Source: Leptolyngbya sp. FACHB-321
Lineage (GTDB): Bacteria > Cyanobacteriota > Cyanobacteriia > Leptolyngbyales > Leptolyngbyaceae
Direction: 5' to 3'
DNA length: 64,000 bases
NCBI RefSeq assembly: GCF_014695975.1
Contig: NZ_JACJPI010000064.1
Location: 186,001 to 250,000 of the forward strand
Shown here: positions 1 to 30,923 of the stretch, one piece after another
How positions within the stretch are numbered: position 1 is the first letter of the stretch
Layout of the letters: every line of letters begins with the position of its first letter
Notes under the pieces: model-generated
The model's database searches: none
Told to the model about the DNA's origin: nothing
What the model saw: only the letters and a program-made list of their open reading frames with translations
Made by a program: the position numbers and the translations under genes

Positions 1-1438
1 TGTTTGAAGTGAGTTGCAGCAGATACGCAGACTGGGCAGAACTGCTAAAAGATGCCTTCCCTTCGTTCAATTGAGGATGAGCGACTACTACATCATGGGC
101 AGATTTGCTAAATTCCCATAGGGTGTACTCAGGTGACAGATTGAGTTGAGAGACATCAATGGTAATTTGATGGGGTGAGTTTTGGTCATTGACTAACAAG
201 ACATAGACGTTACCAGTCTCATCTCTCGTTGTGATGGTGAGCGTATCTGAGCTAGTAGGAGTACTGAGGAGAACTGTTCTGCCGCCCTGAAGCGCTCTAG
301 TTGCCATGCGAAAGGCGTAGTAGCTTAAACGACGACGACCATCTGCATCGATTAGACCTTCAAAATCAGAGTTGCGTCCCCAGCCGTAGAGCGAAAAAAT
401 ATGACTGCCATAAACATAGGTATCTCCTGGTTGTGAGGCCCGAATCATATTTTTGATCAGATTGAGGGAGAAGTTCAGGCTGTTATACCCACCTGTGTAA
501 GTGCCCCATTCTCCCAGCCACAACGGCGATCGCGCATGAACCGTGCCTCGCATCCAAGTCCTGACTCGGCGCACGTATAATGAAATGTCGCGGTCATAAT
601 TGTGTACGTTAATCGTGTCGAAATAAGCGGGTACGGTCTTCAACGTATCAGCAGGCCACTGGCTGCCACCAATTGTTTTGGGTGCGTGAATGTGAAATTG
701 ACGTTCGGGTAAGTAAGTGCGATAGACATATGTGATCGCATCAGCGGCTACTCGCACCAACTCAAAGTAATCAGCCTGATTTCCACCCCATCCCTGTTGT
801 CGATTATCTGGTTCGTTGTGAATCTCAAAGTCATCAACGTGATAATCATTCCGTACATTGAGCCAGTATGCTGTTGCAAATACGTGCTCCCACCACTCGT
901 TCCAGTCGTCCTTGGTGCGCGGTGGGTTCAGTTGTAGTGCCCAATTTGGGCCCCAGCCCGGATCGCTATTGCGAATGGTCAGTACAGGACGAATATGATT
1001 TTGCTTAAGCGTTTCAAAAATGGTTCTGGCACTGCCCTGCCATAGCTCTGCCGGTGTACCAGAAAAGGCATAATCCGAGCCGCCCACGGGGTTTGTCATC
1101 ACTGCATCCCACTGTTCCCAAGGAATCACATCAGGATTGGCCTTGATTTGAGCGATCGTAGGGAGTCCGTAGGCTCCATCATCGTCCTCTCTTTCCCAGC
1201 GGGACATGCCGCCATAAAGCCGATACGTGTTGATTCCCAAATCCGCGATGTCTGCTCTATCGAAATTGAGGTTACCTTCGCAGGCCCCAATGTAACGGGT
1301 GCTAACTCCAGTCACTGTGTTGTAGATTGTGATTCCTGCTTTAAAGCTCGGTGAAAATGCTTGACCCGTGGAACTTAAGCCGATGCTAATCCAGCATCCC
1401 AAAACTAGACTGAATGCGAATTTTAGTAAACGGTTCAT
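1..1438 (-). CDS. Secreted glycoside hydrolase-like protein (3' end beyond window)
   Basis: The frame is open from an ATG at 1438 to the window edge, so the C-terminus is missing. The N-terminus (MNRLLKFAFSLVLGCW...) reads as a signal peptide ending near SSTGQA. A TIM-barrel hydrolase-like body follows. It has a likely acid/base glutamate in FEIHNEPDN and a second conserved glutamate in PLWLGEWGTYTGG, the pattern of clan-A glycosidases (GH5/GH39-like). The start overlaps the stop of the upstream methyltransferase gene as ATGA, so the two are probably translationally coupled. As the last visible gene of a glycan export operon it may trim or process the exported polymer. Substrate and exact GH family cannot be read from the sequence. 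Confidence 0.72.
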   Translation of the reverse strand, partial: MNRLLKFAFSLVLGCWISIGLSSTGQAFSPSFKAGITIYNTVTGVSTRYIGACEGNLNFDRADIADLGINTYRLYGGMSRWEREDDDGAYGLPTIAQIKANPDVIPWEQWDAVMTNPVGGSDYAFSGTPAELWQGSARTIFETLKQNHIRPVLTIRNSDPGWGPNWALQLNPPRTKDDWNEWWEHVFATAYWLNVRNDYHVDDFEIHNEPDNRQQGWGGNQADYFELVRVAADAITYVYRTYLPERQFHIHAPKTIGGSQWPADTLKTVPAYFDTINVHNYDRDISLYVRRVRTWMRGTVHARSPLWLGEWGTYTGGYNSLNFSLNLIKNMIRASQPGDTYVYGSHIFSLYGWGRNSDFEGLIDADGRRRLSYYAFRMATRALQGGRTVLLSTPTSSDTLTITTRDETGNVYVLLVNDQNSPHQITIDVSQLNLSPEYTLWEFSKSAHDVVVAHPQLNEGKASFSSSAQSAYLLQLTSN

Positions 1439-2607
1439 ACAGGCTTAAGCCGTTGGGCATCAGCGAGTTGATCAGCGTGACTACATAAAGTGCGCCAGCG
1501 CATCGGAGGGTTCAGCATCCCGGTTTGAGGTGCATCAGCGGAAATGGTCAGAGGATAACGGTGCCAATGAAAATCGTAAATTTGTTGCCAGTCGGGGCTA
1601 AAAATACCGGGGTTGATAAAATAATGGCCTTGAATTAGATCTAAGCGATCGATCTGCAATTGAAGACGATGTGGACCTTTCTGAGCATCAGGTAATATAT
1701 CCATTGCAACGTGAGTATCTAGATAAATATCGCCTGATGCGTTGCTCAGACTGAGATTGAAAATAGCCGCTTTTACCGGAGACTCAAGCTGATACTCCAA
1801 TTCTAGAGTGATTCCTTCACCACTATGAATTTCAGCAACCGGGAGACAAGTAAGATTTAGGATCTTGATCAACTGTGAGGGGTTATTCTCAGAAGCAATT
1901 GATTCTGCTTCGGAGACGGAGGATTGCTCTACACAGCGATTGAGGTAAATTTGAGGATGCACCAGGCTTTGGTTTGACCAAGTCGATCGCAGTGCTAGCT
2001 CTTGAAGCTTCGGGTAGCGGAACAGGCGATCTCGTCGCACAAAAATAAAGCTATTTTGGGCATACCAGGGTTCTACTCGGGGATGGTTCCAGATACGTTC
2101 CCGCAAAACATCAATTGCAATGTATCCCCGTTCCTCAAAGCGTTGAATCCAGTAATCCGGCCATTGTTCATTAATGTGATGAGTTCCGCCTTGATAGGGA
2201 ATTGCCGCCGAAAATAAGACTACATCACTGAGCCTAACTAGAGAATTCACAAAACTAGAGGCGCTTTCTTCGGGTAAATGCTCGGCAACTTCCAGAGACA
2301 TGGCTAGATCAAAGGCTTGATCCAATAACACAGGTTGAGACAGGTTCCAGGATACAAACTGATGGACAGGAATCTGAAGGTTTGCAGGCTCAACATAGCT
2401 ACCATCGATCCCTAAAACATCCTCAATTCCATGTTCCCGAAACATCGACAGCCAAGTGCCATCGCCACACCCAACATCGACTACCTGTTGTGGTTGAATC
2501 CAGTCCAGAATCATCGGCACAATCACCGCAGCAGACTGTCGGGAACCATCCCGCAGGGCTTCAAAAAATGCCTGATCATAAAGTTCCTGGACACTTTGTT
2601 CCGTCAT
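1435..2607 (-). CDS. SAM-dependent methyltransferase fused to a Wzt-type glycan-binding domain
   Basis: 390 residues. The N-terminal half is a class I methyltransferase: motif I VDVGCGDGTW at about residues 43-52, an acidic LGIDGS after strand 2, and SLEVAEHLPEE further on. From about residue 250 to the end the protein matches the C-terminal domain of the neighbouring ABC ATPase. Both share YD(F/Y)HWHxYPL (here residues 344-353), then a G(M/I)LxPPM(R/K)W tail. In the family this domain of Wzt binds the end of the exported polysaccharide. I infer that this enzyme methylates a sugar of the glycan, possibly as a terminating cap. It lies just after wzt (about 50 bp) and overlaps the hydrolase gene by 4 bp. 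Confidence 0.8.
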   Translation of the reverse strand: MTEQSVQELYDQAFFEALRDGSRQSAAVIVPMILDWIQPQQVVDVGCGDGTWLSMFREHGIEDVLGIDGSYVEPANLQIPVHQFVSWNLSQPVLLDQAFDLAMSLEVAEHLPEESASSFVNSLVRLSDVVLFSAAIPYQGGTHHINEQWPDYWIQRFEERGYIAIDVLRERIWNHPRVEPWYAQNSFIFVRRDRLFRYPKLQELALRSTWSNQSLVHPQIYLNRCVEQSSVSEAESIASENNPSQLIKILNLTCLPVAEIHSGEGITLELEYQLESPVKAAIFNLSLSNASGDIYLDTHVAMDILPDAQKGPHRLQLQIDRLDLIQGHYFINPGIFSPDWQQIYDFHWHRYPLTISADAPQTGMLNPPMRWRTLCSHADQLADAQRLKPV

Positions 2608-2658: not shown

Positions 2659-3897
2659 TTACAATGCAACAACCTGAGCCGCCATTTCCCATTTCATAGG
2701 AGGACTTAAGATGCCTTGAGAAGGAATATCAGACTCAACCACTAATGGGTAGACATGCCAGTGATAGTCATAGGCATACGACCAATCTTCCTTAAACACT
2801 CCAACGTTGACAAAATACTGACTGCTACTTAGGTCGATGCGATCGCATAGGAGCCGAATTGTATGCTTACCTTCAAGCTGAGGAATTGGAATATTCATAC
2901 TGGCTGTATTCACATCCAAGCAAAGCGTTCCATCCTCCTGGCTAATGCTGACACAGAAGATAGCTGTATCCAAAGGTCGTGTAGTAAAACAATCAATTTC
3001 AACACAAAGGGCATCGCCGCTCATCAAGATGCCGTTGGGCAGCAACCGAACATCGGTAATTTCAACTTCCTGAGAACCAAAGCGATTTTCGTTTACCCGC
3101 AATTCAGTGCCCATGCGAGTCACCTGGGGAGGACGATGGGGGGTGCGTTGCTGGCTTTGCGATCGCATCTCCATCGTGTACTGTCCTGCTACCACAGTCG
3201 GTTCACCGTAGGCTTCAACAGTGCCATGTTTAAGCCAGAGGGCACGATCACACAACCGCTCTACCTGACTAACACTGTGGGATACCAGCACAATCGCGCA
3301 GCCCTGCTCTTTCATCTCCGCAATGCGGTTTAGGCACTTAGTCTGGAAGGACAAATCCCCTACGGACAAAAACTCATCTACCAACAGAATTTGCGGATTG
3401 GTATGCACCGCAACCGAGAAGGCAAGGCGCATCATCATTCCAGAGCTATAGGTACGGACTGGATTATCAATGAATCTTTCCAATTCAGCAAATTCTACAA
3501 TTTTATCAAATCGACGGGAAACTTCCTGTCGTGGCAACCCTGCTACAATAGCTGCCACGAATGCATTTTCGCGCCCGGTTAAATCTCCATGGAATCCAGC
3601 TCCTAAATCAAGGAGTGCACCAACCTGCCCTCGCATTTTGATACGCCCTTCCGTTGGATGGGCAACTTTGCCCAATAGTTGTAAAAGTGTAGACTTTCCA
3701 GCGCCATTGTGCCCAAGAATTCCCAGCATTTCCCCAGCTGCAACTTCAAAAGAAACTCCCCGCAAAGCCCAGAACTGATCCACTGCTTTTATGCATCGCA
3801 GCCCTGATAATGCTGCTTCCATAAAGGTTTGCGGTTTTTGAGAATGATACCGACTAAAACATTTTCCTAAATTTTCAACAAGAATGGCAGTTTGCAT
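2659..3897 (-). CDS. wzt: Polysaccharide ABC transporter ATPase with glycan-binding C-terminus (Wzt)
   Basis: 412 residues. The nucleotide-binding domain has Walker A GHNGAGKST (62-70), the signature region YSSGMMMRLAF (150-160), Walker B LLVDE (171-175) and the switch histidine in VLVSHS, as in the TagH/KpsT/Wzt family. The extra ~150 C-terminal residues form a Wzt_C-type beta-sandwich carrying YDYHWHVYPL (376-385). In the O9a system this type of domain recognises the modified end of the finished chain before export. Directly upstream and abutting is the permease gene. Together they should move an undecaprenyl-linked glycan across the inner membrane. Confidence 0.9.
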   Translation of the reverse strand: MQTAILVENLGKCFSRYHSQKPQTFMEAALSGLRCIKAVDQFWALRGVSFEVAAGEMLGILGHNGAGKSTLLQLLGKVAHPTEGRIKMRGQVGALLDLGAGFHGDLTGRENAFVAAIVAGLPRQEVSRRFDKIVEFAELERFIDNPVRTYSSGMMMRLAFSVAVHTNPQILLVDEFLSVGDLSFQTKCLNRIAEMKEQGCAIVLVSHSVSQVERLCDRALWLKHGTVEAYGEPTVVAGQYTMEMRSQSQQRTPHRPPQVTRMGTELRVNENRFGSQEVEITDVRLLPNGILMSGDALCVEIDCFTTRPLDTAIFCVSISQEDGTLCLDVNTASMNIPIPQLEGKHTIRLLCDRIDLSSSQYFVNVGVFKEDWSYAYDYHWHVYPLVVESDIPSQGILSPPMKWEMAAQVVAL

Positions 3898-4701
3898 TTA
3901 AATCTCCTCTACAAACCGAAGGCTTTGATGCTTGAAAAGTCGATATCCAATGGGTAACAACACCAAGGTAATGCCTGCGATAATTGCCATGGCTAGCCAA
4001 TCCGGTTGAACTCCCCAAATCAAAATTTGCCGATAGCAAGTAATGATATGAACGACAGGGTTCAGACCATAAACCTTCCAGTATTGGCCGGGAATGCTTG
4101 TCAGTTCATAAAAGACAGGGGTTAAGTAGAACAAGAATTGTAGCAAAACTCCTAAAGTATGCTGAGTGTCTCGAAAGGTTACATTGAGGGCTGCAAGAAA
4201 GTAGGCAAAAGTAACTGTTAAAGCAAATTGAAGCACATGAAGTATAGGCAGAATCAGAATCAGGGGCGTTAATCTGACCCCATCGAGTAACAGAAAAACG
4301 ATTAAGACAGGTAATGCCAGGATAAAATGAATTAAACCTGTAGTAACAATCACAACAGGCAAAATAGCTGTCGGAAAACTTGGCTGTCGAATCAATGCAC
4401 GACTATTGATAATGATTCCAGTAGCCTGAAATAGGGAATTTTGAAACCAATTCCAAGCCAACAATCCAACAAATATATAGGATGCATACTGGGGAATATC
4501 AATTTTGATAATGACCTGAAAAACAAAGACAAAAACCAACAGTTGCAAGAGGGGATTGACAAGGGTCCAAACCACTCCTAAAGCTGATCGTTTGTACATA
4601 AGTTTCATGTCACGATCAACCAGGGTTTGCAACAACTCGATAATGTGAGGTAGTTTCCAATGGTTGTAGCTGGGGCGTGTTGCTTCGGGAAACAGAGGCA
4701 T
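3898..4701 (-). CDS. wzm: Polysaccharide ABC transporter permease (Wzm)
   Basis: 267 residues, the usual size for ABC2-type permeases of the Wzm/TagG/KpsM group. The N-terminus carries the typical amphipathic region ending LMYKRSALGVVWTLVNPLL, followed by about six hydrophobic segments (including LLQLLVFVFVFQV and the final AIIAGITLVLLPIGYRLF). The stop directly abuts the start of wzt. This is the membrane channel half of the exporter. A 70-bp gap separates it from the upstream tandem glycosyltransferase gene, so it probably sits on the same transcript. Confidence 0.9.
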   Translation of the reverse strand: MPLFPEATRPSYNHWKLPHIIELLQTLVDRDMKLMYKRSALGVVWTLVNPLLQLLVFVFVFQVIIKIDIPQYASYIFVGLLAWNWFQNSLFQATGIIINSRALIRQPSFPTAILPVVIVTTGLIHFILALPVLIVFLLLDGVRLTPLILILPILHVLQFALTVTFAYFLAALNVTFRDTQHTLGVLLQFLFYLTPVFYELTSIPGQYWKVYGLNPVVHIITCYRQILIWGVQPDWLAMAIIAGITLVLLPIGYRLFKHQSLRFVEEI

Positions 4702-4771: not shown

Positions 4772-7486
4772 TCAAACGGCAATGGTGTTTGTTTCAGCAA
4801 CCGTTTCGTTAGCAACTATTTCAGTAGAAGCTCCTTCAGTAAAAGATACTGTGGAAAGACGTTCTGTTAGGGGAATATAAGGTTGGCTATAACCCAACTG
4901 CTGAACTCGCCGATGCGATGCCCATAAAGACCAAGCACCAGCAAGATGTCCTAAAACTTCTAAGATGACTAGAGAAATGGGATAGCGGCTTTGCCCTTTC
5001 AGTTTATGAATAATCCGTCCAGCATGCCATTGGGGCAGGGTGACCAGCAGATGTTTGAGCGATCTCCAATCCTGCTCCTCCAGAATTAGCGTGAGATGGT
5101 AAGCGACATGACCTTTACTATAGTTATAGAGTTGACGGCGTAGGGCAGGCATATCCTGGCGGTGCTTATGCCAGACGAATGCTGTTGGTTCATAAGCGAT
5201 GGTGTAGCCAGCCTTCAAGATTTTGTAAAAGAAGTAAATATCTTCGCCGCTCCCTGATGGCATACCAGCTCCAAGAGCTTCGTCTAGCAAGCCGATCTGA
5301 GGATCTGCAAATAAACAAGCACGACAGGCAATGTTAGCGGTTCCACCCAGTAGCCAAGTTCGCACCACTTCTTTTGAAGAGAACCAGTCAGATCCACCCT
5401 CAAAACGCTCAAAACCTCGTCCTAGCCCTCCATCACCATAGCTTTCAAATAGACGCTGAGAGGCAGACTCCAGTTCGACGGGAAGGATGTTGCCTGTTAC
5501 AGCCATCACTTCAGGGCGGTCAAATGGAGTTAGCAGATTCTCTAGCCAAGCGGGAGGGACCGTGGTGTCATCATCTAACATCACCACAATTTCACCTCGG
5601 CTTGCAGCAATACCTGTGTTACGTGCATAATCTGCACCGGGGCGTGACTCGATCATAAGCTTCACTTGAGGAAATTCTGCCACGATGGATGCTGTTAAAT
5701 CAGATTGCGGGCGGTTGTCCACCACAATGATTTCAAAGGAACAGTCAGTATCCTGCTTCGTCACACCTCGTAAGCAGTTTCGTAAGTCATCAGGGCGATC
5801 ACAGGTACAAATCACGATGGATGCAGAGATCGCCTGGTCAATGATGGTTGGACGTAAGACAGCAGTATCTAGCAGTAACTTAGACCGCTCAGGCATAAAT
5901 CGTTGAGCCAGTGGAAGTTGAAGCCTTGCCCAGTAGTCAGCTTCACCCAGCTTCTGATCGGGATCAAAGAGTCGATATCCCAACTCACTAATAATGGCAT
6001 CCCTAAGTCTTGGTGCACTAATGATTTGTTGATGATTCCACACATAAATCTGACCAATTCCTGCTCCTTGCCAGGTTACAATCACCCTCGTTCTGTCATA
6101 GTCTACGGTATCTGTAAGGGCCTCAACGGGAAGGGTTAACTCCACCGTACGTACAGCAGTGCGATGTTGGCGATCTCCCTGTTCCTCCTGCATCCTCACA
6201 TAGGAAGACTGAAGATGGGGGGCAGGATTGGTTATTTCCTGCTCAATCTTCGCAGCAGCTTTCCGTGCCGAACCATAACCCAATATGCTGGCAATACTGC
6301 CGGACACCTCTGCAAAGGCCAAATCACGAGACAACCAGCTACGTCCCAATACCGCCGCAGCAAATTGACCCACGATTCGAGTTCGTGTCCACCAAAGTCC
6401 GATGCTCAAAGCGGTTTTACGCTCGTCCCTATAAAGCATTGCATTATGCAAAAGATACACTGTCCTGCTACCAACACGGCGGTAATGCGCTTGAAGGCTG
6501 GCATTATCTGTTACAACCTGATGTCGTACGATCGCCGCAGGTTCATAAACCAGCACGTGCCCATGCTTCAATACTCGACAGAACAAATCCAATGCCCCCG
6601 CTCCATTTAACGATGAATTCATCGTCAGAGATGGATCAAAATAGCCAATTTGTTCAAATACTGTTCGTCTAACAGCCATGTTCAAGTCTGTGCCCATCCA
6701 CCAAGGATGTGCCACTAGATCTCTAGGCAGAGGTTTCCCCTGCCCCGTGTGAAACCACTTGCGTTCACAGCCTAGAGCAAAGCCTCCATAGTTTTCAAAT
6801 CGGTACTGGGAGTCAGTATCTAAGGCTTCGGGGACGACCAGCCCGGTCACTACCATAACCTCAGGGCTTTCAGCAAAACGAGTCGCTAAGGTCTTGACCC
6901 ATTCTGAGTCAGCAACACTACGGTCATCAACATAGGCAATAATTTCACCTTTGGCTTCCAGTGCCGCCCGATTTCGAGCCCAGTTGAGACTAGGATGGGA
7001 TTCATGAACATAGTGAATGTGCGGATATTTGGTACGGATGAGTTCCGCTGTTGTGTTATCACTGGGCGCATAATCCACCACCATATAATCCACATTTGGA
7101 TAGTTAAGGTGGCTCAAAGCATCTAGACAGCGACGCAAATCCGTCAGGTGATCATGTGTGCAAATGGCTACCGTGACCGATGGCAGAGATGTTGAATAGG
7201 ACGGGAGTTGCAAATTTAATAGTTTTGACAAGCTTAATTCAGTTGTAGCCACATCATAACTAAGCTGAACCTGCAACGCTTGATGCAAAATTGACCAACG
7301 GTACTTTTCCAGAATCTCGTGGGCAATGGTTGTTGCCAAGCAACGACCATCGTGAACCGGAAGTTGAACAAAACCAAAGGGAACACCGTGCCACCTTACC
7401 AGAGCTTTGAGTTTTTGAAATCCTGTTAAGTTCTCAATGGTTTGGAGGGGGTGGCTCAACTCAATATCGATAAGCTTTATGGACAT
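4772..7486 (-). CDS. Tandem two-module GT2 glycosyltransferase (first module divergent)
   Basis: 904 residues made of two copies of a ~450-residue unit: a lead domain of ~90 residues, then a GT-A (GT2) domain. The lead domain is visible at residues 1-75 (IDIELSHPLQTIE...HGVPFGFV) and again at about 445-515 (VELTLPVEAL...GAGIGQIYV). The second GT2 module looks intact: CTCDRPDDL, VVDNRP, SRPGADYARN and the metal motif VMLDDDT. The first has CTHDHLTDL, VVDYAP, SHPSLNWARN and VDDRS at 186-190, so several positions conserved in its relatives are changed. It resembles the next gene over its whole length. It probably adds sugars to the glycan exported by Wzm/Wzt. Confidence 0.85.
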   Translation of the reverse strand: MSIKLIDIELSHPLQTIENLTGFQKLKALVRWHGVPFGFVQLPVHDGRCLATTIAHEILEKYRWSILHQALQVQLSYDVATTELSLSKLLNLQLPSYSTSLPSVTVAICTHDHLTDLRRCLDALSHLNYPNVDYMVVDYAPSDNTTAELIRTKYPHIHYVHESHPSLNWARNRAALEAKGEIIAYVDDRSVADSEWVKTLATRFAESPEVMVVTGLVVPEALDTDSQYRFENYGGFALGCERKWFHTGQGKPLPRDLVAHPWWMGTDLNMAVRRTVFEQIGYFDPSLTMNSSLNGAGALDLFCRVLKHGHVLVYEPAAIVRHQVVTDNASLQAHYRRVGSRTVYLLHNAMLYRDERKTALSIGLWWTRTRIVGQFAAAVLGRSWLSRDLAFAEVSGSIASILGYGSARKAAAKIEQEITNPAPHLQSSYVRMQEEQGDRQHRTAVRTVELTLPVEALTDTVDYDRTRVIVTWQGAGIGQIYVWNHQQIISAPRLRDAIISELGYRLFDPDQKLGEADYWARLQLPLAQRFMPERSKLLLDTAVLRPTIIDQAISASIVICTCDRPDDLRNCLRGVTKQDTDCSFEIIVVDNRPQSDLTASIVAEFPQVKLMIESRPGADYARNTGIAASRGEIVVMLDDDTTVPPAWLENLLTPFDRPEVMAVTGNILPVELESASQRLFESYGDGGLGRGFERFEGGSDWFSSKEVVRTWLLGGTANIACRACLFADPQIGLLDEALGAGMPSGSGEDIYFFYKILKAGYTIAYEPTAFVWHKHRQDMPALRRQLYNYSKGHVAYHLTLILEEQDWRSLKHLLVTLPQWHAGRIIHKLKGQSRYPISLVILEVLGHLAGAWSLWASHRRVQQLGYSQPYIPLTERLSTVSFTEGASTEIVANETVAETNTIAV

Positions 7487-7557
7487 GGGATAAACTCCGG
7501 GCTTGAAAGCGAAGGAACTAGTTCAATCAGCGTTATTTGGTTATGGTGCAGCAAGGG

Positions 7558-10263
7558 TTACCTCACAGGACTGCCAGCCAGCACTTGATCCTCAATTGTT
7601 ATTTCTGAAGCAAGTCCAGTGTTAGACATAGTTTGTGAGACACGTTCTGAAACAGGTATGTAAGGACTGCTATACCCTTCGTTTTGAACGCGAACATGGG
7701 AGCGCCAAAGGGACCAAGGCCCTGCAAGATGTCCTCGAATTTCAAGCCATTGGAGGGGTAATGGATAATCTGTTAATCCCTTTAGGCGATCCCGGATCCG
7801 ACCAACATGCCACTTGGGAATATCTATCGCTAGCATCGTCAGCACTCGAAAATCTCGCTCGCGCAGCAGAGTGGTAAGTTGGAATGAGACAATGCCCTTG
7901 CTATAGTTATAAATTTGTCGACGCAGAGCATCCATGGTGCGCCGATGCGTGTGCCAGGCTAATGCCGTCGGTTCATAAACAAGGGTTTGACCTGACTTAA
8001 TAACTTTGTAGAAGCAGTAGGTATCTTCACCCACGCCTGAAGGCATTCCAGGGCCTAAGGGCTCATGTAACATACCAATTTCAGGTTGCTGGAAGATACT
8101 TGCTCGGAACGCTGCATTGGCGGTTGCTCCTAGTAGCCAGGCAGGTACTGCATGGGGCCAGCGCTGAAACCAGTCGCGGTTACCTTCAAAGCGATTAAAT
8201 CCACGGCTGAGTCCTCCATCTCCATAGTTTTCAAATAACCATTGGGATTTTGTTTCTAGCTCGATGGGTAAAGTGTTTCCTGTAACAGCCATAACATCAG
8301 ATCGGACAAAGGGCGCAACCAGTTTCTCGAGCCAGTCTGATGGTAGTGTCACATCATCATCAGTTGCGATGATGATATCTCCTGTACTTGCAGCAATGCC
8401 AGCATTGCGTGCATAAGCTAGTCCTTGACGGGATTCATTAACCAGCTTGACCCCTGTAAACTGAGCCACAATTGGCGGTGTGACACCAGATGCAGGATGA
8501 TTGTCCACTACAATGATTTCGACTTTGCGTAGGGTTTCCTGTTGCAGAAGATAACGCAGACACTTGGGCAGGTCGTTGGGGCGATCGAAGGTGGCAACAA
8601 CAACGGAGACCGACACCTCTGGTGGCAAAGTCAGATGTTTAGTGCTGAGGGTTACAACGTCTCGCGGGGGTGAGTACTCCTGATAGAGCTGATCGATTGC
8701 CAACGACCAGCGCACATCTCCTGATAGTTTCTTGTAGGGGTCAAGAAGTGTTAAACCTAGTGTGTGCACAATGGCATCTCGCAGGCGGGACTGACTGATA
8801 ACCTGGCGGAGGTTTTGGATGTCAACTTGACCAATTGCTGCTCCCCGCCAGGTTAGAAAAACTCGTGTTCGCAAATAATCTGTCACATCAGTAATACTAG
8901 GCAGAGGTTGCGTTAGTTCAACTGCGCGAATGGCAATGCGATCGCGCTCATCCATAGTTAAGGAACGCATAGGTGTCTTTTCTGACACCTTGGGTAGTAA
9001 TGGACCATATTCTTGCTCAATTTGGGCTGCAATTTTGCAGGCTTGTTGGTAACGTGTTAGCCCTACCAAGGAACCTTTAATTTCTCCACAGACAATATCA
9101 AGTGGGAGAGTAATAGTCCCTATAAAAGAGTTGAAAAATTTGCGAAAATGCCATTCACGAACTAACCACAATCCCCACTTCACCAAATCAAAGCGGGCGT
9201 TGGGATATTTTAGGAAATGACAAACTAGGTAAGAATAGGCACTACCGTTATTAGTGAGCTGGGTTTTAAGCTTTTCATACTCCCGTCGGTGACGGTGGCG
9301 GATCATGGCTCTTGGTTCGTAGACCAGACAATAACCTTCTCGCAGAACCCGAAAGAACATCTCAATGTCCCCACCACCATTGGTGACGGTACCTACATCA
9401 AGAGCTGGATCAAAATAACCAATTTTGTCAAATAAGCGTCGACGGAATGCCATGTTTGCGCCTGTACCATATCGTCCAGCATTCCACAACATTTCCCAGG
9501 AAAGCTTTTGTCCAGGTTCAACTTGGTACCAAATCCGCTCAAATCCGCGTCCAAATCCACCGTTTTCTTCAAATAGAACCTGTGCTTTCGTTTCAAGTTC
9601 GTAGGGAACGACTAACCCAGTCACAGCCATTACATCTGGGTCTTCTGCAAACACCTGAGCAAGTCTTTTCACCCAGTCTCTATCAACTATTACGTCGTCG
9701 TCTGTATAAGCGACAATTTCACCTTTGGCTTCTAACGCCGCACAGTTACGCGCCCAATCTAGCCCTGGTCGTGGTTCTCGGATATAACGCGCTTGGGGGT
9801 ACTGAGACATTAGGTTTTTCGTTGACTCAGTTTTTGGGGCATTGTCAATGACCAAGATATCTAGATTGGGGTAGTCAAGTTTCAGAATTGCATCCAGACA
9901 AAGCTTGATGTCTTCAGGACGGTCACGCGTACATACTGCCACTGTCACGAGGGGTAACTCACCATCATATTCAGCAGGTGGCAGATTTATTAAATCCTCT
10001 AAACGCAAATCTTCGGGTCGATGAGATGATGCCAACCCATTCTTCAATAATTGACAGATAATTGCCCAGTTATGGTGCTCTAAAATTAGCTTACTCAGTG
10101 TTTCAGTTGTGCAGCGGCCTAACGTAATGGGTGCATTGACATAACCAAGAGGAACTCCATGCAAGCGCACTAAGCCCTTCAATCCCATATATCCATTTAA
10201 TCCCTCAATGGTTGGAATTGGACGGCTAAGTTCAATATCAACAACTTTAATTGGATAAAGCAT
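7558..10263 (-). CDS. Tandem two-module GT2 glycosyltransferase
   Basis: 901 residues, a full-length paralogue of the downstream gene, again [lead domain + GT2] twice. Lead domains begin VDIELSRPIPTIEGL and VELTQPLPSITDV. Both GT2 modules keep the usual motifs: CTRDRPEDI, VIDNAP, PRPGLDWARN and TDDDVIV (DDD at 188-190) in the first; TFDRPNDL, VVDNHP, SRQGLAYARN and TDDDVTLP in the second. Two active sites in one chain suggest it adds two residues or alternating linkages, as known dual-domain glycan polymerases do. The ~90-residue lead domain is not a domain I can name. The gap to the downstream gene is 71 bp. Confidence 0.86.
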   Translation of the reverse strand: MLYPIKVVDIELSRPIPTIEGLNGYMGLKGLVRLHGVPLGYVNAPITLGRCTTETLSKLILEHHNWAIICQLLKNGLASSHRPEDLRLEDLINLPPAEYDGELPLVTVAVCTRDRPEDIKLCLDAILKLDYPNLDILVIDNAPKTESTKNLMSQYPQARYIREPRPGLDWARNCAALEAKGEIVAYTDDDVIVDRDWVKRLAQVFAEDPDVMAVTGLVVPYELETKAQVLFEENGGFGRGFERIWYQVEPGQKLSWEMLWNAGRYGTGANMAFRRRLFDKIGYFDPALDVGTVTNGGGDIEMFFRVLREGYCLVYEPRAMIRHRHRREYEKLKTQLTNNGSAYSYLVCHFLKYPNARFDLVKWGLWLVREWHFRKFFNSFIGTITLPLDIVCGEIKGSLVGLTRYQQACKIAAQIEQEYGPLLPKVSEKTPMRSLTMDERDRIAIRAVELTQPLPSITDVTDYLRTRVFLTWRGAAIGQVDIQNLRQVISQSRLRDAIVHTLGLTLLDPYKKLSGDVRWSLAIDQLYQEYSPPRDVVTLSTKHLTLPPEVSVSVVVATFDRPNDLPKCLRYLLQQETLRKVEIIVVDNHPASGVTPPIVAQFTGVKLVNESRQGLAYARNAGIAASTGDIIIATDDDVTLPSDWLEKLVAPFVRSDVMAVTGNTLPIELETKSQWLFENYGDGGLSRGFNRFEGNRDWFQRWPHAVPAWLLGATANAAFRASIFQQPEIGMLHEPLGPGMPSGVGEDTYCFYKVIKSGQTLVYEPTALAWHTHRRTMDALRRQIYNYSKGIVSFQLTTLLRERDFRVLTMLAIDIPKWHVGRIRDRLKGLTDYPLPLQWLEIRGHLAGPWSLWRSHVRVQNEGYSSPYIPVSERVSQTMSNTGLASEITIEDQVLAGSPVR

Positions 10264-10331: not shown

Positions 10332-11432
10332 TTAAGACTCGGAGCAGGGTGAATAGGCAGACAACGGTTGCGGAGCCTGGGCAAGCTGAGAGATTATGTG
10401 ATGAAACACATTGCCAACGAACAGTTTGAGGGCAATTGCACCCTTGCGTTGATAAATAGTCGCTAGGGAAACAGGTGCTCGATGAATCTGCGCAATTGCT
10501 TGCGGCTGAGACGATCTCAATCCCAGCAAACTCTGAATTAGTAGACGATAAAATCCAATGCGTATCCAAGGTGTGACCGGATCTGCTTGGATAACCTGCT
10601 TTAACCAGTACAAGGTGGTGCGGTAGTCTTGGCAGCGATGGCTTTGGTAGGCAAAGTAGCCATAAAGATTGCTGCTAGACAAGCGAAATAAGTAGGATGG
10701 AAACTCGGGTCGCTGCTGGCGCACGTTTTGCATAACCAGCGCGTGCGATCGAGCCATTTGAGTGTAATCACAGGACATGCTGATTGCCCGTTTGCGATAT
10801 CCCACCAAAAACTCTGGCACTACACGAAATTCATAACGTGCTGCAATTCGCAGATATAAATCCCAGTCTTCGCAACCTTGAGCATTTTGCGATCGCAACG
10901 TCGGGTCATATCCGCCTACCTGCTCCAGACAACTGCGTCGCATGATGGAAGCACTAGCATTGCCCAAAAAGTTGTGACAGACCAACGTAGAGAAAACATT
11001 ACCCTGAATTTCTGCTGCCCGGAAACTGCCCAGAAGGGCATCGGATTCGTCAATGTCTACAGACCAGGAATACACCAACCCTACAGAGTTACCTCCCTGC
11101 ATCATGCACTGAACTTGCCGTTCAATGTTTTCGGGATACCAGATGTCATCCGCATCGATCGATGCAATAAACTCACCTAGTGCCTGAGCGATCGCCAAAT
11201 TACGAGCGGCGGCAACTCCTGCATTTGCCTGATGCAATAATTTGACTCGATCGTCCTCTTGAGCAACCATAGCAACGATTTCTGGTGTTTGATCGGTAGA
11301 ACCGTCATCTACAACCAACACTTCCAGATTGCGATAGGTCTGGGTCAGAACTGATCGCAACGTTCGCGCAATTGAAGCAGCAGCATTGTAAGCCGGAATA
11401 ATCACCGATACCAGCGAAGTGTCATTAGGCAT
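10332..11432 (-). CDS. GT2 family glycosyltransferase
   Basis: 366 residues from the ATG at 11432; a GTG one codon earlier is also possible. The N-terminus is a classic GT-A fold: VSVIIPAYNAAASIARTL, VVDDGSTDQTPEI, the AGVAAARNLAI segment and the metal motif SIDADDIW at about 90-98, then GCEDWDLYLR. The C-terminal ~120 residues have no motif I recognise. The start overlaps the end of the upstream GT2 gene by 8 bp, so the two are likely made together. Likely a cytoplasmic sugar transferase of the ABC-exported glycan; donor and acceptor unknown. Confidence 0.87.
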   Translation of the reverse strand: MPNDTSLVSVIIPAYNAAASIARTLRSVLTQTYRNLEVLVVDDGSTDQTPEIVAMVAQEDDRVKLLHQANAGVAAARNLAIAQALGEFIASIDADDIWYPENIERQVQCMMQGGNSVGLVYSWSVDIDESDALLGSFRAAEIQGNVFSTLVCHNFLGNASASIMRRSCLEQVGGYDPTLRSQNAQGCEDWDLYLRIAARYEFRVVPEFLVGYRKRAISMSCDYTQMARSHALVMQNVRQQRPEFPSYLFRLSSSNLYGYFAYQSHRCQDYRTTLYWLKQVIQADPVTPWIRIGFYRLLIQSLLGLRSSQPQAIAQIHRAPVSLATIYQRKGAIALKLFVGNVFHHIISQLAQAPQPLSAYSPCSES

Positions 11433-12510
11433 CACTGACCCCTACCAAGCGCTTCAAGGTTCGCCGGAAACGGAAGCGTCTCATACCCACGGGCTGCCAC
11501 TGCTTTTGCGAGTGCATGATGGTTCCCAAACCAAAGGCAATTCCACTGTAGAAGTAGTACAGCCAATGCATGAAAACGGCTCTGCTGGCAAAAACGAGGC
11601 CACGTTTCTGCTGAAAAAACTGGTAGACATCGCGGTTGAGCCAGAGTAAGATTGCTGCCAACAGCCCCATCAACCAACCCATGTGCGGAACGTAAACAGT
11701 CAGCGGTAACAACACCAGCAAACTATAAACGGCTACTACACTCATCCGGTTAGACCCCTTAAGATTCAAATCATTTACGAATCCGTTGGGGTACTCCAGC
11801 AACAGTTGAGTCCAGGGAATGCCACGATCGAAAATATCAACCTTAATCAGGCTGCCTAACCGCCAGGCTTTGTGATGTTTGACCTGCACCTGTTTCGCCA
11901 GCTGGATTTTGCCACCCGCTTGCTGAATGCGATAGCCAAGGTGAATATCTTCAATGCTGGGGCGAGGATAGCGCCGCACATCAAAGCCACCCAGCTTCAG
12001 GAAGAGCGATCGCCGCACGGCTCCACAACCCGCCCAGAAGGTGGTTGCTTCTTCATAGCCTGTTTGGTGCACGTAGTGATGCATCAAATTTTTGAACTGA
12101 GCGACGAAGTTCTTTGCTTTGGGGGCGTCGTCGTAGGAGCCAAATACGGCGCTGATGTGCGATTGGCTCTGTAATACCTGGGCCAATTGGGCTAAGGTAT
12201 CTGAGTGCACTTCACAGTCCGCGTCAACGAAGCAAAGGAATTCTCCTTGGGCGATCGCAGCACCCAAGTTGCGGGCTGCTCCTGGCCCCAAGCGACCATT
12301 CGTGTGGAGGAGATTTGCACCAAATTGTTGGGCGACGATCGCGGAGCTGTCGGTGGAACCGTCATCCACCACAATCAGTTCCCAATCCCGAAATTCTGAT
12401 TGGTTAATGGCGTTTAGGCAATCTACAAACGCCTGGCCACCGTTATAAACAGGAATAACAATCGAGAGAAGTGGAAAAGAAGGGTCAGTAGATAGCGATC
12501 GTGGGTTCAT
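11425..12510 (-). CDS. Membrane-associated GT2 family glycosyltransferase
   Basis: 361 residues. The GT-A motifs are LLSIVIPVYNGGQAF, VVDDGSTDSSAIV, GPGAARNLG and the metal motif FVDADCEVH, followed by GGFDVRRYPRPSIEDIHLGYR, where the ED pair is the likely catalytic-base region. The C-terminal third contains hydrophobic segments (VVAVYSLLVLLPLTVYV, GLLAAILLWL, and a last one around YYFYSGIAFGLG). It is therefore probably anchored in the inner membrane, like GT2 enzymes that act on lipid-linked acceptors. The stop lies inside the start region of the next GT2 gene, and the upstream oxidoreductase gene ends 9 bp before this start. Confidence 0.86.
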   Translation of the reverse strand: MNPRSLSTDPSFPLLSIVIPVYNGGQAFVDCLNAINQSEFRDWELIVVDDGSTDSSAIVAQQFGANLLHTNGRLGPGAARNLGAAIAQGEFLCFVDADCEVHSDTLAQLAQVLQSQSHISAVFGSYDDAPKAKNFVAQFKNLMHHYVHQTGYEEATTFWAGCGAVRRSLFLKLGGFDVRRYPRPSIEDIHLGYRIQQAGGKIQLAKQVQVKHHKAWRLGSLIKVDIFDRGIPWTQLLLEYPNGFVNDLNLKGSNRMSVVAVYSLLVLLPLTVYVPHMGWLMGLLAAILLWLNRDVYQFFQQKRGLVFASRAVFMHWLYYFYSGIAFGLGTIMHSQKQWQPVGMRRFRFRRTLKRLVGVSDA

Positions 12511-12519: not shown

Positions 12520-13977
12520 CTACATCCATCGTCCGGTCGCACTGGTTAAAGGCTGCACCTCAACTGCCGTCTCTGGAAACGTTTTTTCGATAAACCGGAA
12601 TACATCTTCCACAACTCCATCACTATTCATGTAGTGGAATGAGCCGGTTCGACCAACTAGATGTAAGTTAGGCCACTGACTGAAATAGTTCTTGACTGCT
12701 TGCAGTTTTTCCTGATAGCCAATGCGGTAGACCGGATAGGCGTATGGAACGCGCAAAACCCAGCTTCTGTGAACGTCCGCCTTGTTAGTCCAACCAATTT
12801 GATCCATCTGCTCCACAACTTGGTTCAGAATCTCGTCATCGGTCATTTGCCAAACCGATTCACCGCGGCTCGCAAAAATCTCGATCGCCAACGAGGTGTA
12901 AGAACCATCGGGCACCATTTCGCTTGACCAATTCTTTGGCTCATGAGTGCGCCCAAACAATAGATTCTTGAGCGGAAAGTACGTCCAGCTATCTCGGCTG
13001 ACTTGAGGCTTTTTGAGCGCGACAAATAAGCAGATAATGTCTCGATACTCCAGGTCGTACTGCTGCGAGATTTCCTGGCTGCCCCATTCGTCGGGAATTG
13101 ATTCCAGTAAGGCATCGAGTGGAATCGTAGACACAACCTGATCGGCTCTCAGTGTTTGATGAGAGCCATCCTGATGTTGAATGGCTACCTCAAAGCCGTC
13201 GCTGGTGGGAGTGCAAGTCAGCACTGAAGTATTGGTATAGATTGTGCCGCCCAGGTCGAGAATCTCGCGCTCTAAGGCTTGAGGAATCATACCGAAGCCA
13301 GCACGGGGGTAGTAAAACTCAGAAATCGCGGTTGCTGGTGTTTCTTTAGCAGGAGCGATCGCCTGTTGCACCATTTTGCGAAAACTGGGAATGCTAATTC
13401 TCTGGGCAGCCCATGCAGCGGATAACTCATTACAAGGAATGCCCCAGACTTTTTCTGTGTACGGTTCAAAGAAGACTTTATAGAGCGCTTTGCCGTAACG
13501 TTTAATGACCCAGTCTTCAAAGGAAACTTCTGGACGCTGACGTTCAGTCACTTTTGATGCAAGATAACTCACTGCCATGTGAGCAGCTTTAAGAGGTGAG
13601 AACGTTGAGATTGCCTTGGCGATTTGAATCGGGTAGTCGACAAACTGGCCATTGAGATAGATATGGCTAGTACGAGGAACGGTCAGCAAATCCGACTTGA
13701 GCAAGTCTTTCAGCCAATTCACAACGGTTAGGTTATTGCTATGAAAGCGATGACCACCAATATCAAATCGGAACCCTTCTTTCTCAAAGGTACGTGCAAG
13801 CCCGCCTACCTGTGAGCCTTTTTCGATTAAGGTGACTGTGCATCCTTTCTTCAGCAACGCTTGTGCGGCTGTTAGCCCTGCAAGTCCACCCCCCAAAACA
13901 ATGAAATGTTGTTTTGGGAAATCAGGTGATTGCACTATTGAACTAACCGTCGGTCTCGTATTCGCAACTGTTATCAT
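12520..13977 (-). CDS. FAD-dependent oxidoreductase, UDP-galactopyranose-mutase/protoporphyrinogen-oxidase-like
   Basis: 485 residues. The dinucleotide-binding motif GGGLAGLTAAQALLKKG is near residue 28, followed by LIEKGSQVGGLARTF and GGHRFHSNN. Further conserved blocks are SFEDWVIKRYGKALYKVFF and YTEKVWGIP, and near the C-terminus LHLVGRTGSFHYMN. This is the FAD enzyme family often found beside GT2 genes in polysaccharide loci and loosely related to UDP-galactopyranose mutase. The substrate is unknown: it may be a nucleotide sugar or a lipid carrier. It is the first gene of the minus-strand operon, so the operon promoter should lie just upstream, at about 13978-14100. Confidence 0.8.
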   Translation of the reverse strand: MITVANTRPTVSSIVQSPDFPKQHFIVLGGGLAGLTAAQALLKKGCTVTLIEKGSQVGGLARTFEKEGFRFDIGGHRFHSNNLTVVNWLKDLLKSDLLTVPRTSHIYLNGQFVDYPIQIAKAISTFSPLKAAHMAVSYLASKVTERQRPEVSFEDWVIKRYGKALYKVFFEPYTEKVWGIPCNELSAAWAAQRISIPSFRKMVQQAIAPAKETPATAISEFYYPRAGFGMIPQALEREILDLGGTIYTNTSVLTCTPTSDGFEVAIQHQDGSHQTLRADQVVSTIPLDALLESIPDEWGSQEISQQYDLEYRDIICLFVALKKPQVSRDSWTYFPLKNLLFGRTHEPKNWSSEMVPDGSYTSLAIEIFASRGESVWQMTDDEILNQVVEQMDQIGWTNKADVHRSWVLRVPYAYPVYRIGYQEKLQAVKNYFSQWPNLHLVGRTGSFHYMNSDGVVEDVFRFIEKTFPETAVEVQPLTSATGRWM

Positions 13978-21032: not shown

Positions 21033-23051
21033 CTAAAGAGGTTGCGGTGTCGCCGTTACAGGAGGCACTAACGCTGCGTCTGATGCAGAGAGTTGGATAA
21101 TCAAAGGTGCATCCGAGACGTTGAGAGTTAGCTGGGTGGGAGCGGTGTAGCGTGCCAAGGGAGCGATCGATTGATTGGGCGCATAGGTTGTCGCTTGAGC
21201 AAACGGCGTATTGAAATTCAACGTGACGTTTTGACCAACGGCAGCCTGAGCAGTGCTAGGTACTTCGAGCCAAAGGACGAGGTAGAAGTCACCGTTGCTC
21301 TTCTCCAAAAGCGTGTGATGAACGTTCTGAGTGCTGCCACCTATTGAGAAATTGAGCGCCCCTAGTGGTGCTGCGGGTGCGGGTGTTGTAATCGGTGCAG
21401 GTGTCGCTGTGACTGGTGTGAGGGGCGCAGGTGTCGCTGTGACTGGCGTTGTCGGTGCGGATGTTGTCGGTGTCGTGGGTGCAGGTACTACCTCTGGTTT
21501 GGGATCGTCAAGCAGGGTAATCAGGTTTTTTAAGGCAGTGTAGGCAGGTTTGGGTGTGCCATTGCTGCGAATGATGCCGTAGTTGTTTTCGCTATTGTTG
21601 GGGTCAGCTTTTTGATCCATCAGCTCGTAGGAAAAGGTGCGAGGCGCACCAGCATTGAAGCTTTCGAGAAAGAGTCGAGGGAGATATTTCGCCTGTACAG
21701 CTTCTGAGACAGGACGATCGGACGTGGGGCTACCAGTAGAGTAGCCGACCTCAGTGGCGATCAAGGGCTTGGTGCCAAAGGGTTGCGATCGCATGGCATA
21801 ATCTCTAGCTAGGCTACCGTCACCGGGATTATTGGGATTGTTGTAAGGGTGAAAACTGCCGTAGTCTACCCACTGGCTCAAGTCGCCGATCGCGCCGCTA
21901 GAGTTGGCATACACAAACGAGGGACCAATGATAGGAATATGTGCTGTCGCTGGGTCTGCCTTGAGTGCAGTATAAACGTCTCTCGTAAAGTCCCGTACGT
22001 AGCTGATCCAGCCGTCTCCTGTGACTGGTTGACCATTACGGGTATAGGGAAAGATTCTGTGGAATAGGTCAAATTCATTCAAGATTTCGACGGCTTCCAC
22101 ACCCTCTGCCACCAGGTTTTTGACAAAGTTTGTCACTGTATAGCCGGGTGGCTTGATGTCGTAAGAGGCATCAGGACCAATGCCAATGTTTGGGTCAAGC
22201 ACTAGGGTCGATTTGATGCCCAGTCTACCTAGCTCGTTGATGCGGTTAATCCAGGTAGGGTCGCTGCCGCCATCGCGAATATGGCGAATGCCCAAATCGA
22301 GCAAGCTTTGTTTGACGAACGGATAGTTACCGTATGCTGTGTCGTAATAGCGAACGTGGGTATTGATGCCGATCGAATCGACAAAAGCATCAGCACTTTT
22401 GGCGGGGGCACCAATAGCAAAAGGAAGCGTACTAGTACCTTGAAAGAGTTGGCTGGCAGGAATAATTTCTTTTGCTTGTGTCGGGCTAGACCATAGCAGT
22501 TGAGCGGTCGCGCCACCTGCACGCTCATAATATTCCAGCTTGATGTCGTAGTTTTGACCAGCGGCAAGAGCGATCGTACCACTGTCTTCAGTCAGGTCAT
22601 GATCAGCCCAGTTGTCAATCAGCAATTGCCCATTAACCCATAGTCGAACGCTATCATCCGATCGCGTGTAAAACGTGTAGGCTTCAGTAGACTTAGCTTG
22701 CACTTGCCCTGTCCAGCGCACTGCAAAATTGTCGGCTGCTACAAGCGAATTAGGTGCCTGATTGCCCCAGGTAAAGTTAACCGTCGGATTAATTTCCGAC
22801 CATTTCAAAGTGGTGAAGTTCTTGCCTTGAAAATATTGCGCTCGCAACCCAGGTTGGTTAACGATAGCTGCACTTGGTTCAGGGGAAGCAAGAGTACCAG
22901 ACGTACTACTACTGCTGGCGGTAGCGCTACTAGAGAATGTAAACAAGCTATCTGCCAGAGTGCTAAGAGCAGGCGCAACGATCGAACTAGCGCTAACGCC
23001 TGGATTAAGATCAGGGCTACTTGTAGCGGCTGCGGTGATTAAATCTGACAC
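21033..23051 (-). CDS. PA14-domain glycoside hydrolase-like protein
   Basis: 672 residues from a GTG at 23051. A Ser/Ala-rich N-terminus has no clear signal peptide. A PA14 domain lies at about 65-200 (GLRAQYFQGKNF, YTFYTRSDDSVRLWVNGQLL, YDIKLEYYERAGGATAQLLW). Next comes a TIM-barrel hydrolase-like region (IGINTHVRYYDTAYG, IRHIRDGGSDP) with a likely acid/base in VEILNEFDLFH and a second glutamate in PLIATEVGYSTGSP. A Pro/Thr linker with a 10-residue repeat (TPVTATPAPL, TPVTATPAPI) joins a C-terminal beta-rich domain. PA14 domains often bind sugars. It stands alone between dnaN and the spl-like gene, outside both glycan operons. Substrate unknown. Confidence 0.75.
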   Translation of the reverse strand: MSDLITAAATSSPDLNPGVSASSIVAPALSTLADSLFTFSSSATASSSSTSGTLASPEPSAAIVNQPGLRAQYFQGKNFTTLKWSEINPTVNFTWGNQAPNSLVAADNFAVRWTGQVQAKSTEAYTFYTRSDDSVRLWVNGQLLIDNWADHDLTEDSGTIALAAGQNYDIKLEYYERAGGATAQLLWSSPTQAKEIIPASQLFQGTSTLPFAIGAPAKSADAFVDSIGINTHVRYYDTAYGNYPFVKQSLLDLGIRHIRDGGSDPTWINRINELGRLGIKSTLVLDPNIGIGPDASYDIKPPGYTVTNFVKNLVAEGVEAVEILNEFDLFHRIFPYTRNGQPVTGDGWISYVRDFTRDVYTALKADPATAHIPIIGPSFVYANSSGAIGDLSQWVDYGSFHPYNNPNNPGDGSLARDYAMRSQPFGTKPLIATEVGYSTGSPTSDRPVSEAVQAKYLPRLFLESFNAGAPRTFSYELMDQKADPNNSENNYGIIRSNGTPKPAYTALKNLITLLDDPKPEVVPAPTTPTTSAPTTPVTATPAPLTPVTATPAPITTPAPAAPLGALNFSIGGSTQNVHHTLLEKSNGDFYLVLWLEVPSTAQAAVGQNVTLNFNTPFAQATTYAPNQSIAPLARYTAPTQLTLNVSDAPLIIQLSASDAALVPPVTATPQPL
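21395..21458. repeat. 30-bp direct repeat in the Pro/Thr linker
   Basis: Two near-identical 30-bp units within the glycoside hydrolase gene (GCAGGTGTCGCTGTGACTGG at each start) encode TPVTATPAPL and TPVTATPAPI on the minus strand. Such in-frame linker repeats can vary in copy number between strains. Confidence 0.6.
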
Positions 23052-23655
23052 TGGTATTTTCCCTGATAAACGAAGGTTGCTTAACGAGTCTCAGCACTAA
23101 ACCCTAAAAACAGAGTGCATTAAGCTGCAATCTGCATTAGAGGATGAAGGTGTTGAAGACTGGTGGTAACTACTTGTAGGGAACACACGAATTGGGATCT
23201 GAAAGACATTCGTAAAGGTACGAAGAGGATTAAGTTAGCGGGCTGCCTTTAAGTGAAACGTAGAACCAAAACGGTTCCTGACCCCCGCACCAAAAGAGTT
23301 TATAGACGGCTTTTTGACTGCATCATTGCCTTCATTGCATTCATTTCTTTCACGAGCAAAATAATAGTTGAAGCTATAGCTTGACGACTGTAACCTCAAA
23401 AATTGTGAAGATCAAACCGAACGATGCACCCAAGTTAAACACACGTTATCTTCAGCTATACAGCATGAAATTGCAACCGCACTAACTTAAAAATTCTTCT
23501 CAAAATTTTCATAAAATTTAACACTTAGGGTCTGTATCGCCCTACTTACGGATGGGTTTTTGCCCACTATCAGGGCGTAAGATCCTCCTCTTGAGGGCGG
23601 TTTGGGCGATCGTGTCGTCATTATCATGAAGGAATGTTACTAGCAGTCGTTTACA
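23052..23655. other. Intergenic region between divergent hydrolase and spl-like genes
   Basis: About 600 bases with no credible gene. A 12-bp perfect palindrome AAGCTATAGCTT lies at 23370-23381. Promoters for both divergent genes should lie here, but none is clear. Confidence 0.45.
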
Positions 23656-24720
23656 GTGCAAACAACCGTTAATCTTCCTGCTGTTTCACGCTTATGGATG
23701 CCTGAGCGTGTTCTCTTTACTCCATCAGCTCTGGAATTGCCCTGGGGTCAGCAAATTTTGTCGCGGGTGCAGGCATTAGACCTTCCGGTCGAAGAGTTGC
23801 CGCGCGATCGCCTGACTGGTCTGCGGGGTGAAGATGACCGCGAGACGTATGCGATCGCTAAGCGTACCCTTGCTGTTGTCGTTGCGCCGCCCAGCCATTT
23901 CAAGCTCAGCCCCATTCCACCGTCGGCAGACTGGCAGTTTCACCTGGCGGAAGGCTGTCCTGCCCACTGCCAGTACTGTTATCTGGCGGGTAGTTTGCAG
24001 GGTCCACCAGTCATTCGTGCCTATGCTAATCTGCCGCAGATTTTAGAAAACTTAGCGGCGTACGAGCGTCCCGGTCAGGCAACATCCTATGAAGTAAGCT
24101 GCTATACCGATCCACTGGGTATTGAACACCTGACAGGTAGCCTTGCTGAATGCATTCGTTACTTTGGTACTCGTCCTGATGCTCACCTGCGCTGGGTCTC
24201 AAAGTTTGATGGGGTTAACCACCTCCTTGACCTGCCCCACAATGGACACACGCGCTGTCGTGTGAGCGTGAACGCAGCACCCATCTCTCAACGGCTAGAA
24301 GGTGGTACCGCATCTGTTGCCAAGCGCCTGCAAGCATTGCGGCAATTGGCGTTACCTCGATCGCGGGGTGGTGGCGGTTATCCCATTGGGCTAGTGATTG
24401 CTCCCATTATGCCGATCGATGATTGGCAGACTCATTACAGTGAGCTTTTTGATGCGATCGAGTCGGCGATTGACTTTGACTGTAACCTTACCTTTGAGCT
24501 GATTTCTCACCGCTTTACCCCTGGCTCCAAGGACGTGCTGCTGAGTTGGTATCCCAATACATCCCTTGACCTGGATGAGTCTACCCGTAGCGTCAAACGC
24601 AATAAGTTTGGTGGCACCAAGTATGTCTACGAGGCCGAGATGATGAAAACCCTGCGCCGCTTTTTTGAGCAGGAAATTGCCCGTCGTTTTCCTCAGGCAA
24701 AAGTGCTTTATTGGACTTAG
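23656..24720 (+). CDS. splB: Spore photoproduct lyase-family radical SAM protein
   Basis: 354 residues from a GTG at 23656; an ATG 13 codons later (MPERVLFTPSALELPWG) is an alternative start. The radical SAM cluster motif is EGCPAHCQYCYL (CxxxCxxC), near residue 97, preceded by a conserved RLTGLRGEDDRETYAIAKRT. The C-terminal YNTSLDLDESTRSVKRNKFG and YVYEAEMM match the SPL family. In spore formers SPL repairs the thymine spore photoproduct. Cyanobacteria make no such spores, so here it may repair other UV lesions or do another radical reaction. The symbol denotes family resemblance only. It converges on the GT4 gene at 24728. Confidence 0.8.
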   Translation: MQTTVNLPAVSRLWMPERVLFTPSALELPWGQQILSRVQALDLPVEELPRDRLTGLRGEDDRETYAIAKRTLAVVVAPPSHFKLSPIPPSADWQFHLAEGCPAHCQYCYLAGSLQGPPVIRAYANLPQILENLAAYERPGQATSYEVSCYTDPLGIEHLTGSLAECIRYFGTRPDAHLRWVSKFDGVNHLLDLPHNGHTRCRVSVNAAPISQRLEGGTASVAKRLQALRQLALPRSRGGGGYPIGLVIAPIMPIDDWQTHYSELFDAIESAIDFDCNLTFELISHRFTPGSKDVLLSWYPNTSLDLDESTRSVKRNKFGGTKYVYEAEMMKTLRRFFEQEIARRFPQAKVLYWT

Positions 24721-24727
24721 AGTCGCT

Positions 24728-25780: not shown

Positions 25781-25783
25781 AGC

Positions 25784-26932: not shown

Positions 26933-27039
26933 GGGAGGAAAGGATGAGGGATGAAGGATGAAAGAGGAGAGGGAGACGGGGAAAGCAGGGGAGGCAGAGA
27001 ACGCGAGGGAAGCAAGAACGTTTTGAGTTAACTCAGCCT

Positions 27040-30824: not shown

Positions 30825-30923
30825 GAGGGCAGAAGGCGGGAGAAGATAGAAGGCAAAGGGCAGGAGGCAGAAGGCAAAGGGCAAAAAGCGGGAGTTGAGA
30901 GAAGGTAAAACAAACTCAAACCT
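30825..30923. repeat. Low-complexity purine/pyrimidine spacer (AGGCAGAAGGCAAAGGG type)
   Basis: Short spacer built of repeated AGAAGGCAAAGGG/AGGAGGCAG units. The same family of motifs recurs at about 26933-27060, 54070-54190, 60455-60490 and 63840-63885. It is non-coding and extends neighbouring open frames artificially. Confidence 0.55.

Follow-up and report, generated by a model that had tools for sequence, protein, structure and literature searches.

Locus organization

The window, i.e., the whole stretch of DNA analysed, comprises 64,000 nt from the genome of Leptolyngbya sp. FACHB-321, whose two PsaA/PsaB genes mark it as a cyanobacterium. Open reading frames reveal two adjacent minus-strand genes, which encode protein A and protein B. 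Each protein is built as LD-GT2-LD-GT2, where LD stands for a lead domain of ~95 residues found in front of each GT2 core, and the two genes together carry four modules, A1, A2, B1 and B2 (Table 1). PF00535 matches above its cut-off in both halves of both proteins, with scores of 140.5 and 171.7 bits and two matching stretches per protein. Upstream of the protein B gene are two more GT2 genes and the gene of an FAD enzyme. Downstream of the protein A gene are Wzm, then Wzt with a Wzt_C domain, and then a methyltransferase with a Wzt_C domain of its own. The adjacent Wzm permease and Wzt ATPase with a C-terminal glycan-binding domain are the arrangement by which an ABC transporter-dependent polysaccharide pathway is recognized.

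Table 1. Positions of genes and protein parts in the window
Feature	Position	Strand	Remarks
Exported protein, truncated by window edge	1..about 1438	-	glycoside-hydrolase-like by eye only
Methyltransferase fused to Wzt_C	1435..2607	-	PF13489 and PF14524, both above cut-off
Wzt, ABC ATPase with Wzt_C glycan-binding domain	2659..3897	-	PF00005 and PF14524
Wzm, ABC-2 type permease	3898..4701	-	PF01061, E 1.6e-18
Protein A	4772..7486	-	904 aa, LD-pseudoGT2-LD-GT2; tandem gene adjoining Wzm
GT2 core A2	5132..5824	-	aa about 555-785; LDDDT / GSGEDIYFF / HKHR intact
Lead domain A2	5879..6160	-	aa 443-536; profile E 8.3e-24
Degenerate GT2 core A1	6494..7183	-	aa about 102-331; VDDRS / NGAGALDLF / RHQVV
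Lead domain A1	7196..7480	-	aa 3-97; profile E 1.5e-28
Protein B	7558..10263	-	901 aa, LD-GT2-LD-GT2; motifs intact at both GT2 sites
GT2 core B2	7909..8613	-	aa about 551-785; TDDDV / GVGEDTYCF / HTHR intact
Lead domain B2	8656..8937	-	aa 443-536; profile E 8.2e-25
GT2 core B1	9283..9954	-	aa about 104-327; TDDDV / NGGGDIEMF / RHRHR intact
Lead domain B1	9967..10251	-	aa 5-99; profile E 8.9e-31; AlphaFold2 pLDDT 81 when modelled in isolation
GT2 without LD	10332..11435	-	relatives at 22 of 33 LD loci
GT2 without LD	11425..12510	-	usually paired with the FAD gene
FAD-dependent amine-oxidase-like protein	12520..13977	-	PF01593, E 1.3e-34
Second region dense in minus-strand genes	23000..47300		several glycosyltransferase-like genes, no LD
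MsbA-like exporter gene	40885..42786		within the second region

Several of the neighboring genes have relatives elsewhere. The methyltransferase-Wzt_C protein beside Wzt may cap or mark the chain recognised by the exporter, and its relatives are found near exporter genes at two other loci (L042, L068). The truncated exported protein is conserved next to exporter genes at L042, L045 and L068. The GT2 and FAD-enzyme pair is also present at loci without LD (L104, L105) and looks like a separate two-gene unit. The MsbA-like exporter gene of the second region resembles the exporter of the type II LD operons described below.

The lead domain as a protein family

The whole modules were aligned all against all. 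Modules A1 and B1 display 44% identity and A2 and B2 54%, and identities across the two types are 27-33% (E 1e-30 to 1e-57). With the lead regions alone, identity within type is 46% for A1/B1 and 47% for A2/B2. Between the two types, pairwise comparison gives a weak signal, with z of 5.8-8.2 against shuffles for three pairs and just 1.8 for A2/B1; the family profile, however, detects all four LDs of the window at E 1e-23 to 1e-31. The lead regions are thus homologous within type by alignment and across types by the profile. An earlier note on this DNA had described a ~90-residue lead domain present twice in each protein, each copy before a GT2, giving four copies in two genes, and this is confirmed; the V-E-L-xxP-L and G-x-x-x-G-x-V patterns that it pointed out agree with the alignment.

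With a profile built up from the LDs of the window, 43 LD copies were detected in the first relatives. Among 4146 shuffled or reversed proteins, the best E given by the four-seed profile was 0.65. When proteins with LD doublets (see below) were held out of the profile, the doublets were still found, with E values as low as 3.5e-11, against 0.22 for the best decoy among the 4146. These sequence comparisons establish LD as a real family. Its distribution in cyanobacteria is patchy, with 19 positive genomes among 291 sampled, and outside of them LD occurs in Deinococcus, in the actinomycete Dietzia and in Rhizobium, and more weakly in Ensifer, all of these non-cyanobacterial relatives coming from plasmid records only. 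An LD search of the Leptolyngbya sp. FACHB-321 genome gave no second LD site, and a scan of genome contigs with the full protein as query gave a distant GT2 as the sole match.

The domain had not been recognised by the earlier note, and it corresponds to no described domain in Pfam or NCBIfam. With 29 members scanned there was no consistent match; the best single-member E was 0.04 in Pfam and 0.0088 in NCBIfam, and no family was hit more than once. A sequence search of the PDB with LD gave chance-level matches only, matches in viral contigs and phages are confined to the GT2 region, and no description of LD was found in the literature search. LD is also highly variable, with one invariant column among 29 rows.

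Structure prediction was informative for LD alone and poor for the whole module. The AlphaFold2 model of LD, made from an alignment of four sequences only, has a mean pLDDT of 81, about 90 over residues 1-60, and displays a small beta-beta-beta-alpha-alpha topology of three strands and two helices. LD is thus predicted to be a small module that folds independently. Searches with this model gave nothing significant with Foldseek (best E 0.19) or with VIA-align (best Z 3.3). The whole-module AlphaFold2 model (pLDDT 46) was of too low quality and was set aside.

Exporter association and origin of the tandem genes

A polysaccharide ABC exporter is present at 32 of 33 LD loci, 18 with Wzm/Wzt and 14 with an MsbA-like exporter, and one locus has neither on the fetched stretch. 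The control, GT2 loci without LD, has an exporter at 1 of 20. It should be noted that, given the common descent of the 33 LD loci, the count represents an association and not independent events. Two types of operon are seen. In type I, Wzm and Wzt come after LD-GT2 modules that are encoded singly or in tandem; in type II, an MsbA-like ABC exporter is followed by two single LD-GT2 genes. Tandem proteins are confined to type I operons or to the one stretch without an exporter. The proposal that tandem proteins always sit near wzm/wzt holds for 10 of 11 tandem loci on the fetched stretches; the exception is one G012 contig, whose stretch has no exporter. The tandem locus of G043 is split over two contigs, and the exporter adjoins the second fragment.

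In a quick tree of 77 modules, the tandem second modules form one side of a branch with a support of 100, apart from the first modules. The adjacent single LD-GT2 genes of type II operons show the same split as the tandem modules, in the same order. The sequences thus indicate that modules of types 1 and 2 were encoded by neighboring genes before they were fused. The simplest reading is that an old, divergent pair of LD-GT2 genes fused and that the resulting tandem gene was then duplicated to give the A-type and B-type genes.

The msbA2 operon of Sinorhizobium meliloti consists of two glycosyltransferases and an MsbA (PMC3687685). Kinship with this operon was considered and dropped, as the matches listed for the Rhizobium LD-GT2 at E <1e-10 included none from S. 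meliloti.

Lead domains in other enzymes

Most LD copies are located directly before a GT2 core. LD is also found in doublets, C-terminal to GT2 and in proteins devoid of a glycosyltransferase. In several genomes, sulfotransferase-LD-LD-polysaccharide deacetylase proteins are encoded right after Wzt, as are GT2-LD-LD-NodS-type methyltransferase-deacetylase and GT2-LD-LD-deacetylase proteins, and one protein has the architecture LD-LD-GT2-LD-LD. LD is therefore not specific to glycosyltransferases, and its sequence distribution indicates that it moves among different enzymes of one pathway. Module-2-type glycosyltransferases without a detectable LD are present in the LD operons of three genomes (G012, G028 and G044), and LD is thus dispensable for glycosyltransferase catalysis. 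Heterotypic pairing of LD classes within the doublets was considered and rejected; the module-1 and module-2 profiles gave no one-of-each split, and most doublets scored higher with the module-1 profile.

At locus L058 (2319-5807, minus strand), a single chain of 1162 aa carries a GT2 and two LDs together with methyltransferase (NodS-type) and deacetylase (NodB-type) parts. At L075 (11428-13500, plus strand), a Wzt with a C-terminal sulfotransferase fusion adjoins the sulfotransferase-LD-LD-deacetylase protein, and similar genes of 690 aa are present in L077, L080 and L082, the domain scan covering L075 only. Loci of the L075 type probably specify sulfated exported polysaccharides.

Loss of catalytic motifs in protein A

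Comparison of the first modules shows that A1 has VDDRS for the TDDDV of B1, NGAGALDLF for NGGGDIEMF, and RHQVV for RHRHR. A1 lacks the metal-binding DXD (DDR), the catalytic Asp (GAL) and HRHR; the DXD and the catalytic Asp/Glu are present in B1, B2 and A2. The loss of these motifs suggests, short of proof, a loss of activity in A1: in Klebsiella pneumoniae O7, a domain with NXD is active (PMC11231755).

The damage is shared by A1 and six A-type counterparts from other genomes, located next to Wzm (n=7). The DXD and the HRHR region are gone in all seven first cores, whereas loss of the catalytic acidic residue is limited to some of them. The motifs are kept in every tandem second module and in every B-type first module. 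Intact first modules have mean pairwise identities of 63% in the LD core and 70% in the GT core, and second modules have 34% and 60%, and 40% and 68%, respectively. In the degenerate first modules the values are 44% for the LD core and 36% for the GT core. LD is thus the better conserved part in degenerate modules and the GT core in intact ones, and constraint has shifted from the GT core to LD. Degenerate modules form long branches and their cores evolve faster. The quick tree hinted at several independent origins of the degenerate module, but a single origin is not rejected by the AU test (p 0.363).

A model for the locus and alternatives to it

The locus may encode the cytoplasmic machinery that assembles a surface polysaccharide of the cyanobacterium for export via the neighboring Wzm/Wzt. 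Protein B would be a bimodular, polymerase-type glycosyltransferase whose two GT2 sites attach two of the residues in a repeat unit. Protein A would stem from duplication of a B-like tandem gene; its second GT2 would work, and A1 would have become a pseudo-glycosyltransferase, a subunit without catalysis that is kept for a structural, binding or regulatory role. If ABC-dependent O-antigen systems are a guide, the growing chain would be handed on to Wzm/Wzt. LD most likely tethers the pathway enzymes to a common partner, be it another of these enzymes, the exporter or the nascent glycan. The account as a whole, with LD docking, a two-site polymerase B, a pseudo-glycosyltransferase fused to an active one in A, and export by Wzm/Wzt, has in our judgment about an even chance of being right. 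Only tentatively do we propose its more specific form, in which LD is a docking domain that gathers glycosyltransferases, sulfotransferase, methyltransferase and deacetylase at the exporter, with the degenerate glycosyltransferase beside Wzm as an organising or length-setting subunit.

A possible alternative, though a doubtful one, is that LD is an acceptor-binding, i.e., carbohydrate-binding, domain for a common lipid-linked glycan and is carried by every enzyme that acts on it. This would account for the occurrence of LD within the same operons on glycosyltransferase, sulfotransferase, methyltransferase and deacetylase proteins alike, and for its retention on degenerate modules, and Wzt_C glycan-binding domains are likewise common to Wzt and the methyltransferase at this locus. 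A common pathway could equally reflect common acceptor recognition, which weighs against docking. However the single invariant column, the absence of a match to any carbohydrate-binding family in the PDB and Pfam searches, and the module-2 glycosyltransferases of the pathway without LD speak against glycan binding. We infer that docking to a common partner is the preferred role. The idea in the earlier note that the lead domain may act on the acceptor or in bringing modules together gains indirect support.

That A1 is a functionless, pseudogene-like module on its way out would agree with the long branches of the degenerate modules. It is unlikely given that the reading frame is open in seven genomes, that the degenerate module is in every case fused to an intact second module, and that its LD core is better conserved than its GT core, where intact modules show the reverse. 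The position of most LD copies directly before a GT2 core would fit a mere structural addition at the N terminus of a GT2 subfamily, with no separate role; this is improbable in view of the doublets C-terminal to GT2 and in glycosyltransferase-free proteins, the related glycosyltransferases without LD, and the confident fold of LD modelled alone. Least probable is a four-step repeat-unit assembler in which both tandem proteins attach two different sugars one after the other, as the earlier note had supposed: B does have two intact GT2 sites, and polymerases with tandem GT2 units are known from ABC-dependent systems (PMC11231755), but B alone has two such sites, A1 and its six counterparts being comparably damaged, and the degenerate cores evolve faster.

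Comparison with known systems

Returning to the docking model, a degenerate glycosyltransferase module would be a natural test of a non-catalytic role of glycosyltransferases in polymer assembly, and LD, if its role is as proposed, would serve as a sequence tag for finding ABC-exported polysaccharide pathways. Among curated families, the best match of the GT cores is MftF, the mycofactocin glycosyltransferase (NCBIfam TIGR03965; 181.9 and 196.9 bits). Kinship with MftF was rejected; both scores are below the 280-bit cut-off, and the strongest matching falls within the GT regions and outside LD. Chondroitin synthase (PDB 2z86/2z87) likewise has two GT2 domains in one chain and scores best when the PDB is searched by sequence with protein B (E 1.8e-8); the GT cores alone align, however, and LD has no match there.

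Closer in arrangement are K. pneumoniae O7 ORF6, O12 WbbB and Escherichia coli O9a WbdA, which also have two GT modules per polypeptide and are encoded next to wzm/wzt (PMC11231755). In ABC-dependent O-antigen systems, the parts of the polymerase are distributed in varying ways between single-module and multimodule proteins, which form complexes (PMC11231755). A conserved pseudo-GT module in bimodular O-antigen polymerases was not found described in the literature searched. None of these polymerases is described with LD, and in their systems the scaffold is a coiled-coil ruler protein. Enterobacterial enzyme assembly and hand-over to the ABC exporter have mostly been worked out with such coiled-coil scaffolds; LD, common to several kinds of enzyme, would if the model is correct represent a different, portable solution for holding the enzymes of a pathway together.
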